Shown piece by piece: positions 36,850 through 39,206 of a stretch of 64,000 nt of DNA. The stretch lies in the NCBI RefSeq assembly GCF_014323725.1, contig NZ_JABVED010000008.1, forward strand, positions 1 to 64,000, given 5' to 3'. Every line of letters starts with the position of its first letter. The stretch's first letter is position 1. This DNA comes from Actinokineospora xionganensis (GTDB taxonomy: Bacteria; Actinomycetota; Actinomycetes; Mycobacteriales; Pseudonocardiaceae). The notes beneath the pieces were generated by a model that saw only the letters and a program-made list of their open reading frames with translations, had not been told where the DNA came from and made no database searches. Both the position numbers and the translations under genes were made by a program.

Positions 36850-37778
36850 GAACCGTCTTCCTCTCCGGCCAGCAGGTGGTACAGCACGGCCATTCGGACA
36901 TGCACCCCGTTGGCGACCTGTTCGGTGATGGCCGCGCGCGCCGAGTCGGCGACCGCCGGGGCGATCTCCATCCCGCGCAGCATCGGACCGGGGTGCAGCA
37001 CGACCGCGTGCTCGGGCAGCAACCGTGCCCGGGCTTCGCTTAGGCCATAGGTGATCGAGTACTCCTTGGCGGACGGGAAGAAGCCGCCGTGCATGCGCTC
37101 GGCCTGCACCCGCAGCATCATGACCGCGTCCAGCGTCGGCAACTCGGCGTCGAGTTCGTGGCTCACCTGGACCGGCCAGTTCTCGACACCGGCGGGCAGC
37201 AGCGTGGGCGGCGCGACGAGGACGACCTCGGCACCGAGCGCGGTGAGCAGGTGCACGTTGGATCGCGCGACCCGGCTGTGCAGAACGTCACCCACGATCG
37301 CGACGCGCCTGCCGTCGATCCCGCCGAGCCGGTCGCGCAGCGTCGCCGCGTCGAGCAGGGCCTGCGTCGGGTGCTCGTGGGTTCCGTCACCCGCGTTGAT
37401 GACGCTCGTGCCCGCCTCGGCGAGCCAGCCCGCGAGACGGTGCGCGGCGCCCGAAGCCGGGTGGCGCACGATCACGCAGTCGGCGCCCGCGGCGGCCAGC
37501 GTCAGGCCGGTGTCGCGAAGGGACTCGCCCTTGCCCACAGAGGACCCGCCGGAGGAGACGTTGACCACGTCGGCGCTCATCCACTTCCCCGCGATCTCGA
37601 ACGAGACGCGGGTGCGGGTGGAGTTCTCGTAGAACATGGTGATCACCGTGCGGCCGCGCAGCGTCGGCAGCTTGCGGACCTCGCGGCCCAGCAGGGTCTT
37701 CTTCAGACCGTCGGCGGTGTCCAGAATGGCCAGCGCGGTCGCCGGGTCGAGCCCGTCGGTGCTCAGGAGGTGTTTCAC
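36846..37778 (-). CDS. pyrB: Aspartate carbamoyltransferase, catalytic subunit
   Basis: Committed step of pyrimidine synthesis: carbamoyl phosphate plus aspartate. The 310-residue protein has STRTRVSFE and HPTQALLD, the two carbamoyl-phosphate/aspartate motifs. No pyrI regulatory subunit follows; control is left to PyrR. The GTG overlaps the pyrR stop (GTGA). Confidence 0.97.
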
Positions 37779-38365
37779 TCGGACTCCTCCGGCCTGCGCA
37801 GCAGCACGGCGTCGTGACCGTCGATCTCGGCGAGCAGGACGGCGACCTCCTCGGATCGGGCGGTGGGCACGTTCTTGCCCACGTAGTCGGCACGGATGGG
37901 GAGTTCGCGGTGGCCGCGGTCGACAAGGACGGCGAGCTGGACCGCGCGGGGGCGGCCCGCGTCGCGCAGCGCGTCGAGTGCGGCGCGGATGGTGCGGCCG
38001 GAGAACAGCACATCGTCGACCAGGATGACCAGAGCGTCATCGATCCCGCCGGGCGGCAGCGCGGTCGCGCCGAGCGGGCGGGTGGGCTTGCGGCGCAGGT
38101 CGTCGCGGTAAAGGGTCACGTCCAGCGTGCCCACCGGGACCCGCACATCGACGAATTCGGCGATCTTCGCGGCCAGCCGCTCGGCCAGCGGGCCGCCACG
38201 GGTGGGTACGCCCAGCAACACGACCGGGCTCGCCCCGGACGCGCCGAGGGCGGTCTTCTCGATGACCTGATGGGCCATTCGAGCGATGGTGCGCGCGACA
38301 TCGCCGGCCGAAAGCAGCTCGCGCTGCCCAGCCGGGTCTGCCGCGTCGCGGTCTCGCGACGCCAC
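37775..38365 (-). CDS. pyrR: Pyrimidine operon regulator PyrR / uracil phosphoribosyltransferase
   Basis: RNA-binding regulator of pyr genes with uracil phosphoribosyltransferase activity. The PRPP-binding motif is [13 protein letters not shown] (about 113-125) in a 196-residue protein. The GTG at 38365 follows AAGGAG. A PyrR-type RNA loop lies 14 to 31 bases before the start, so PyrR-UMP could cover the ribosome-binding site and repress translation of the operon, as described for mycobacteria. Confidence 0.96.
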
Positions 38366-38378
38366 AGTGGACTCCTTC

Positions 38379-38396
38379 CCCGCCTCACTGGACGGG
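38379..38396 (-). promoter_or_regulatory. PyrR-binding RNA loop overlapping the pyrR leader
   Basis: On the transcript the bases read CCCG, then UCCAGUGAGG, then CGGG. The loop fits the PyrR consensus (UCCnGnGAGG) and the flanks can form a 4-bp stem. It lies immediately upstream of the AAGGAG ribosome-binding site of pyrR, the arrangement expected for translational repression. No antiterminator/terminator pair is evident between it and pyrR. Confidence 0.7.
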
Positions 38397-38414
38397 CTTT
38401 AAAGGATGTCGATC

Positions 38415-38433
38415 AGCCCAGTTGACCTGGGCT
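38415..38433. other. Additional hairpin in the pyr leader
   Basis: Perfect 7-bp inverted repeat AGCCCAG/CTGGGCT around a 5-base loop, 19 bases upstream of the PyrR loop in transcript order. It could be a leader stem or part of an operator; it has no T-tract. Confidence 0.4.
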
Positions 38434-38525
38434 CACGTCGACCGTATCAGGCCGATTCCGGTCACTTTGCGGGTGGTCCGGGCCATGTTCCCCAGGTCTC
38501 CTGGTCCGATCAGCTTGACCTGGTG

Positions 38526-38540
38526 ACAACTCTGGGTAAC
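38526..38540 (-). promoter_or_regulatory. BldD-box-like site 1 upstream of bldD
   Basis: Read on the minus strand it is GTTACCCAGAGTTGT, which matches the BldD consensus NTNACNC(A/T)GNGTNAN at all but one fixed position. It lies just downstream of a TTGACC (38515-38520) that could be the bldD -35. Binding would block the bldD promoter, as in the known autorepression of BldD. Confidence 0.6.
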
Positions 38541-38541
38541 C

Positions 38542-38556
38542 ATTACTCAGCGTGTT
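38542..38556 (+). promoter_or_regulatory. BldD-box-like site 2 upstream of bldD
   Basis: The sequence ATTACTCAGCGTGTT matches the BldD consensus at all but one fixed position. It lies one base from site 1 and on the opposite strand, giving a paired arrangement over the likely -10/start region of bldD, about 64 bases before its ATG. Confidence 0.6.
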
Positions 38557-38619
38557 GATTTGAAGCTACCCGAGGCTGTCGCTTAGCGCCGTCGGGGCGA
38601 ACGAACGGAGAACCGCCGC

Positions 38620-39108
38620 ATGGGCGACTACGCCAAGGCGCTAGGAGCCAAGCTCCGCGCCATCCGCCAGCAGCAGGGGCTGTCGCTGCATGGCGTCGAG
38701 CAGAAGTCCGGCGGCCGCTGGAAGGCCGTCGTGGTCGGCTCCTACGAACGCGGCGATCGAGCGGTCACCGTGCAGAAGCTGGCCGAACTGGCGGACTTCT
38801 ACGGCGTGCCGGTGGTGGAACTCCTGCCTGAGGGCCGGGTGCCATCCGGCGCCGAGCCCGCCACGAAGATCGTGATCAACCTGGAGCGGCTGCAGCAGCT
38901 GCCCGCGGAGAAGGTCGGCCCACTGGCCCGATACGCGGCGACCATCCAGAGCCAGCGTGGCGACTACAACGGCAAGGTGCTCTCGATCCGCACCGAGGAC
39001 CTGCGGTCGCTGGCGATCATCTACGACATGACCCCCGGCGAGCTGACCGAGCAGCTCATCGACTGGGGCGTGCTGCCCCCGGAGGCCCGTCCGTCCAAAG
39101 AAGATTGA
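38620..39108 (+). CDS. bldD: Developmental regulator BldD
   Basis: Master repressor of actinomycete development, active as a dimer held by tetrameric cyclic-di-GMP. The 162-residue protein has an N-terminal XRE helix-turn-helix (about 8-70) and a C-terminal domain with the cyclic-di-GMP signature RGD (113-115), eight residues, then RTED (124-127), all intact. This predicts that the signal is used here. It is divergent from pyrR, preceded by two BldD-like boxes and followed by a strong terminator. Confidence 0.96.
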   Translation: MGDYAKALGAKLRAIRQQQGLSLHGVEQKSGGRWKAVVVGSYERGDRAVTVQKLAELADFYGVPVVELLPEGRVPSGAEPATKIVINLERLQQLPAEKVGPLARYAATIQSQRGDYNGKVLSIRTEDLRSLAIIYDMTPGELTEQLIDWGVLPPEARPSKED

Positions 39109-39119
39109 TTCGGGACAGT

Positions 39120-39169
39120 AAAACACCCGACAGCGCGCAGACGGGGATGCTGCGCGGTCGGGTGTTTTT
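39120..39169. terminator. Strong rho-independent terminator after bldD
   Basis: A long stem (arms about 39120-39140 and 39150-39169, with one small irregularity) ends in TTTTT on the plus strand and in TTTT on the minus strand. It sits between the convergent bldD and nusB genes and can stop both. Confidence 0.92.
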
Positions 39170-39170
39170 C

Positions 39171-39206
39171 ATTACTGCCTTTGATTACTGCCTTTGATTA
39201 CTGCCT
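39171..39206. repeat. 13-bp direct repeat, 2.8 copies, at the nusB stop
   Basis: The unit ATTACTGCCTTTG occurs at 39171-39183 and 39184-39196, with a partial third copy at 39197-39206. The last copy reaches the first two bases of the nusB stop codon complement (39205-39207). It is unusually AT-rich for this genome and looks like slippage duplication beyond the gene end. Confidence 0.9.

Follow-up and report, generated by a model that had tools for sequence, protein, structure and literature searches.

The bldD promoter of Actinokineospora xionganensis includes two close matches to the binding site of BldD itself, which raises the question of whether the gene is shut off by its own product. 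The matches lie in a stretch of 64,000 nucleotides, the whole of which is called the window here. Work by Elliot (1998, 1999 and 2001) and den Hengst (2010) is said to have dealt with bldD autoregulation in S. coelicolor. S. coelicolor BldD is described as repressing its own gene (PMC5650626; PMC4255298), and c-di-GMP as driving BldD onto its boxes (PMC4151990). We conclude, with a probability of about 0.86, that the two boxes in the window constitute a c-di-GMP-activated operator for autorepression of bldD, which would occlude the -10 element and the transcription start and in which the downstream box would be the primary site.

BldD and c-di-GMP signaling

The bldD gene (38620..39108, plus strand) encodes a protein of 162 amino acids that has an N-terminal helix-turn-helix domain and a C-terminal c-di-GMP-binding domain with the signature RGD-x8-RxxD. 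In a profile search, the protein matched PF21179 with 131.5 bits, and PF13560 and PF01381 also exceeded their cut-offs. The combination of a helix-turn-helix with the BldD C-terminal domain is that of BldD, and there are PDB matches to solved BldD domains. These domain matches, together with the identity of 61 of 69 residues to the solved S. coelicolor DNA-binding domain, bear out the identification of the gene as bldD in an earlier note on this DNA. The same note described the c-di-GMP signature as intact, and residues 113-127 indeed read RGDYNGKVLSIRTED, which is RGD-x8-RxxD. An RGD/RXD-x8-RxxD signature is present in all 121 BldD proteins compared, including that of the window.

The protein is 100% identical over 162 residues in six named Actinokineospora records among the best 80 of 543 relatives, and in the 15 other genomes of the genus that were searched. 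Within its own genome (6.8 Mb in 70 contigs), BldD is the only match to itself at E 0.001. Sixteen GGDEF matches over the cut-off occur in this genome, one of them with an internal stop, so c-di-GMP signaling is likely in this organism.

The region 3' of bldD (39115-39178) contains a hairpin with T-runs on both strands and weak Rfam matches to mir-30 below the gathering score. It is probably a two-way terminator shared with the convergent gene, and the hairpin is followed by a short direct repeat, ATTACTGCCTTTG.

Two BldD boxes in the bldD upstream region

The published definition of the BldD box is TNAC-N5-GTNA (PMC4151990), and the bldD promoter contains two such boxes, with one mismatch each. 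The 15-mers at 38526-38540 (GTTACCCAGAGTTGT on the minus strand) and 38542-38556 (ATTACTCAGCGTGTT on the plus strand) are separated by one base, as the earlier note had described. Their 13-bp cores, at 38527-38539 (minus strand; CAACTCTGGGTAA as read on the plus strand) and 38543-38555 (plus strand; TTACTCAGCGTGT), have a gap of three bases and are 16 bp apart, start to start. Each core differs from TNACNCWGNGTNA at exactly one position, namely C for T at 38527 in the upstream box and T for A at 38555 in the downstream box. Because the BldD box is a pseudo-palindrome, the placement of the two on opposite strands carries little meaning.

A lone match to the box is uninformative, since one-mismatch sites occur 6 times in the 64-kb window against 5.07 expected (standard deviation 2.12), and perfect boxes occur at 9 places in the genome against 8 for a reversed control pattern. 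On the same count, perfect boxes elsewhere were rejected as proof of a BldD regulon. The pair is another matter. Among 20,000 dinucleotide shuffles of the 254-base region between pyrR and bldD, 674 had at least one one-mismatch site, 14 had at least two, and a single shuffle had a pair of sites 12-20 bp apart. The pair in the intergenic region is thus beyond chance. Searched genome-wide at the window's spacing and with the center N-C-N-G-N, the two-box pattern has two occurrences when up to two mismatches are allowed, one of them being bldD, and 7 when up to three are allowed, versus 6 for the control. Sequence matching by itself makes a modest case, and the argument is carried by comparison with relatives.

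Two further features of these sequences were noted. One perfect box in the same genome (L008:1501-1513) lies about 340 bases upstream of an open reading frame with a WhiB-family match, which is below the cut-off (60 residues were tested). In addition, the inverted repeat CTGGGTAACCATTACTCAG looks like a terminator, but was rejected as one because it consists of the inner half-sites of the boxes and is upstream of the predicted start site.

Conservation of the promoter and boxes in the family

A family-level set of 121 bldD upstream regions was assembled from the window's copy, the best 80 of 543 relatives, 15 loci from the genus and 25 further loci, and it comprises 106 distinct 200-bp upstream sequences. 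Because it is built on the best 80 of 543, the set favors close relatives. One of the 25 further loci (L144) belongs to another family and was left out of the upstream-box count. The records L026 and L062, titled Rhodococcus rhodnii and Nocardia sp., have bldD regions that resemble those of Kibdelosporangium and Lentzea, and are possibly mislabelled or mixed assemblies.

The family form of the downstream box, ATTACTCTGNGTRT, is found with at most one mismatch in 119 of the 121 upstream regions (120 from the family-level group and one from the other family). A profile was made from these 119, which yielded 83 distinct 70-mers; L071 and L144, with two mismatches to the anchor motif, were dropped. 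Nine bases are invariant in all 83 (A38542, T38543, T38544, A38545, C38546, C38548, G38552, T38553 and T38555), and the apparent conservation of the downstream box is raised by the anchoring of the profile on that box. T38555 is the base that counts as the mismatch, so the off-consensus base is itself fixed in the family.

Upstream of the boxes, the predicted -35 hexamer TTGACC (38515..38520, plus strand) has each of its bases kept in 93-100% of the 83 distinct 70-mers. TTGACC precedes the downstream box by 28 bases in all 13 distinct sequences from the genus and in 61 of the 68 distinct others; in 5 of the 68 the distance is 29 bases, and in 2 of the 68 TTGACC was not found. The window has the same distance of 28 bases as its relatives. 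The earlier placement of the boxes over the bldD promoter region is supported.

In every one of the 13 distinct genus sequences, the upstream box is present at the 16-bp spacing with a single mismatch. In the 68 distinct others, it has one mismatch in 39, two in 10, three in 1, four in 17 and five in 1, as scored by the published TNAC-N5-GTNA; a strict center, CWG, gave a narrower distribution, with the genus and a few others. Mean mismatch counts at the remaining spacings between 10 and 23 range from 3.0 to 6.0. Within the upstream box, the average is 1.32 bits at the key positions versus 0.53 elsewhere; without the stretch shared with the -10, these values are 1.18 and 0.46 bits. The upstream box thus appears to be a real but looser feature.

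These observations bear on whether BldD occupies both boxes. Perhaps the downstream box alone is the operator, with BldD leaving the upstream match, a remnant or a piece of promoter spacer, unoccupied. The degradation of the upstream box in part of the family, in the sequences with four or five mismatches, fits this proposal, as does the lack of a good upstream counterpart in many of the other families with a downstream box; in 37 of 65 sequences from other families, the best pair has two or more mismatches (see below). However, the one-mismatch upstream box in every distinct genus sequence and in 39 of the 68 others, with its conservation concentrated on key positions, and the presence, in 5 of the 22 other families, of pairs whose mismatches total no more than one, make a downstream box that acts alone the less probable arrangement.

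Location of the -10 element and the GGTGAC block

The -10 element of the window can be placed by homology. At the distance at which other families have TANNNT, the window has AACCAT (38538..38543, plus strand), which is weak and would leave a 17-bp spacer. The A2 (38539) and T6 (38543) of TANNNT are present there in 83 of 83 family-level sequences, and T1 is absent in the window and in all 83. The window consequently lacks a canonical TANNNT at 38538-38543, and a sigma-70 scan of promoters found none. The start predicted by homology is at about 38550, so the downstream box would extend from about -7 to +6, and the upstream box is inside the predicted -35/-10 spacer.

A candidate for a different -10 is located at 38544..38549 (plus strand), which is TACTCA in the window and TACTCT, a TANNNT sequence, in most of the family. 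This call is our reading of the base counts. It would pair with GGTGAC (38522-38527) as the -35, with a 16-bp spacer and a start at about 38556. The promoter might have moved in this family, with BldD still positioned over the -10. Such a move is in keeping with the lack of T1 of the homologous -10 throughout the family and with the T at 38549, which gives TANNNT in 80 of 83 sequences, and it would explain why GGTGAC, as the -35, is conserved. However, TTGACC is better conserved and nearer to the -35 consensus than is GGTGAC, the window itself has TACTCA, and other families use the homologous register; we therefore regard a moved promoter as possible but doubtful. The downstream box would overlie the -10 under either call.

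GGTGAC directly follows the -35 and is kept across the family-level set at 80-94% per base. Together with the -35, it forms CTTGACCTGGTGAC (38514..38527, plus strand), a second strongly conserved block that extends beyond the -35 and has a single exact copy in the genome. A regulon of this sequence was considered and rejected, because 56 and 46 matches with up to two mismatches on the two strands compare with 42 and 38 for the control. GGTGAC matches neither the MtrA repeat nor the standard BldD box; it may be bound by another factor or act as a second -35.

Comparison across the class and order

To the family-level comparison were added 70 further loci from the class and order, of which 65 were usable; L177, L182, L186 and L192, in which no N-terminus was found, and L145, which equals the window, were left out. 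The 65 comprise 29 best-scoring loci (a match was obtained in 124 of 246 genomes) and 36 loci chosen by hand, and 18 of them come from one family, so they are not independent.

We defined a promoter-box register as TTGAC, N17-18, TANNNT and a box with at most one key-position mismatch that starts on the last T of TANNNT. Forty-six of the 65 upstream regions from other families show this register, with an exact TTGAC at the homologous distance. Even a looser rule was passed by 0.06% of 3250 shuffles. By a hand tally of family codes, the 46 cases represent 10 of the 22 families sampled, and the register is missing in 19 of 65 sequences; 12 of the 22 families include no sampled member that has it. 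The window's own family, in which T1 is absent, does not pass the strict register that these 46 sequences pass.

The best pair of boxes is free of mismatches at the 16 key positions in 23 of 65 sequences and has one mismatch in 5 of 65. All 28 of these pairs are spaced 15 bp start to start, and none of 1300 shuffles produced a pair with at most one mismatch. They derive from five of the 22 families, and three of them (L196, L197 and L211) occur without the promoter register. The best pairs in the remaining 37 of 65 sequences contain between two and five mismatches, a level that shuffles attain as well. One family has perfect pairs and the -10/box register in 18 of 18 members. It is called Streptomyces-type here, because the 16 members that were compared have all 69 DNA-binding-domain residues as in S. 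coelicolor.

The well-conserved bases might reflect the promoter alone, that is, a -35, -10 and start site with which BldD is uninvolved, and the best conserved of them do overlap promoter elements. This explanation is very improbable, however, since G38552, T38553 and T38555 are invariant in 83 of 83 sequences, yet lie outside the -35 and either -10, and since the half-sites of the boxes recur at the same register in families whose -10 sequences differ.

MtrA as a possible alternative regulator

It is also conceivable that the conserved promoter serves another regulator, of which MtrA is the foremost candidate, and that GGTGAC is the site of such a factor. At the S. coelicolor bldD promoter, MtrA protects -28 to -4, overlapping the BldD sites, and it represses bldD (PMC5650626). 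Repression of bldD by MtrA in S. avermitilis and S. coelicolor is also cited in PMC13189361, according to which MtrA does not bind at bldD in S. venezuelae. Of three family relatives that were scanned, two have a two-mismatch match to the MtrA repeat within the last 200 bases. In the core promoter of the window, however, [GT]T[GA]ACC-N5 (or N4)-GT[GT]AC was not found over the -10, and the best match has three mismatches, compared with one in two Streptomyces-type relatives scanned. Given those three mismatches, an MtrA site was rejected as the source of the conservation. Moreover, MtrA would add to BldD binding and not replace BldD. A different regulator as the main user of this promoter is accordingly judged unlikely. 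A two-mismatch match to the MtrA repeat is present near 38422, in the pyrR leader region.

The divergent pyrR gene

The gene divergent from bldD (37775..38365, minus strand) encodes a phosphoribosyltransferase domain, and the name pyrR rests on this domain, on its position and on a PyrR-type leader. A PyrR-binding RNA leader is predicted at 38308..38409 (minus strand) from a match to RF00515 of 39.8 bits, which is below the gathering score of 54. The ribosome-binding site of pyrR is within a stem, and the fold of 38366-38435 has a z-score of -3.36. This PyrR-binding hairpin with a ribosome-binding site in its stem gives pyrR its own known kind of control. Just upstream of the leader is a second hairpin (GAGCCCAGGTCAACTGGGCT).

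The earlier note had proposed that the boxes might also affect pyrR. The two genes do share an intergenic region of 254 bases, but the likely pyrR -10, TACGGT (38441..38446, minus strand), which is within a block well kept in the genus alignment, has its closest box 81 bp upstream. Within the 254 bases, no one-mismatch BldD box was found beyond the pair. This distance and the lack of an additional box speak against the proposal, and the presence of pyrR's own RNA leader does so as well, such that repression of pyrR by the boxes seems highly improbable.

Probable autorepression of bldD

Because the downstream box is on the -10 under either promoter call, repression by occlusion is the natural sign of regulation. 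The first step of the proposed mechanism would be dimerization of BldD by c-di-GMP via the RGD-x8-RxxD motif. A dimer on the downstream box, which would start at the final base of the -10 and reach about +6, would then exclude RNA polymerase from the -10 and start site, and the upstream box, between the -35 and the -10 and roughly 1.5 helical turns away, would host a second dimer that adds occupancy. With centers 16 bp apart, the two dimers would sit on nearly opposite faces of the DNA. When c-di-GMP or BldD drops, the dimer would be released, and transcription of bldD would resume. In Actinokineospora, a developmental regulator that is already known thus very probably shuts itself off in the expected way.

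The layout common to many relatives argues for autorepression, and this part of the earlier prediction is supported, as is the location of the boxes on the promoter. The suggested effect on pyrR found no support, and neither did the description of repression as tight, because each box retains an outer base that departs from the consensus in all 13 distinct sequences of the genus. In the Streptomyces-type relatives sampled, 18 of 18 have two boxes without a key-position mismatch. Since the deviation is itself conserved in the genus, it suggests that the bldD operator in Actinokineospora is moderated. The prediction also treated the two sites as equals, and the conservation points instead to the downstream box as the core operator.

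A broader reading of the comparison is tentative, and in our estimate somewhat more apt to be wrong than right. It holds that much of the Actinomycetes has a fused promoter-operator, in which one T is shared by the -10 and the box, and that the box in the spacer is adjustable: perfect at 15 bp in Streptomyces-type bacteria, shifted to a 16-bp spacing with a slight weakening in Actinokineospora and its relatives, and dropped elsewhere. The promoter of the window's family, with its loss of T1 of the -10, would have drifted under a fixed operator, and GGTGAC would be the moved promoter or a third input. A literature search that lacked the main BldD papers met no description of the shared T or of the difference between 15- and 16-bp spacing, which is weak evidence of novelty.

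Comparison with known systems

As in S. coelicolor bldD, where autorepression is described, the BldD sites of the window are predicted to lie over the -10 region, and autorepression is predicted as well. The S. coelicolor boxes have no key-position mismatch, are 15 bp apart and accompany a -10 of TAACCT with an 18-bp spacer, whereas the window has one mismatch per box, a distance of 16 bp, AACCAT and a 17-bp spacer. In a Streptomyces diguanylate-cyclase promoter, a second box raises BldD binding (PMC7374567). That gene, ssfg_02181 of S. ghanaensis, has a main box and an affinity-raising auxiliary box, and the upstream box of the window is a candidate auxiliary box of this kind. Unlike the target here, which is bldD, ssfg_02181 encodes a diguanylate cyclase (PMC7374567).

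For S. erythraea bldD, AGCGC-n10-TCGCC has been put forward as a putative BldD site, and a PhoP footprint has been described (PMC6880422). The bldD regions of eight Saccharopolyspora and one Halosaccharopolyspora in our set have TTGACCT(G/A)GTGA and ATTACTCTCCGTAT, as in the layout of the window. In these nine (L072-L078, L080 and L081), the bldD box is TTACTCTCCGTAT. Exact copies of AGCGC-n10-TCGCC number 0 in the nine upstream regions, a set that S. erythraea itself is outside of, and visual inspection of L072 shows a copy with one mismatch on the downstream side of the conserved box. These sequences suggest a candidate BldD operator in Saccharopolyspora other than the one proposed in print (PMC6880422). 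Separately, a conserved block in the 5' untranslated region of the window's bldD (38587-38610; CGCCGTCGGGGCGAACGAACGGAG) resembles, by eye, the reverse complement of the published PhoP footprint of S. erythraea bldD.

Implications

Autorepression by BldD has long been known, and the Actinokineospora operator is an ordinary, well-supported instance that adds a few comparative details and leaves existing knowledge of how BldD works unchanged. This instance locates the loop by which a developmental master regulator controls itself in a genus other than Streptomyces, and it distinguishes the conserved part of the operator, which is the downstream box on the predicted -10, from the adjustable part, which is the upstream box. 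A moderated operator would perhaps allow BldD to accumulate enough to act on its other targets.
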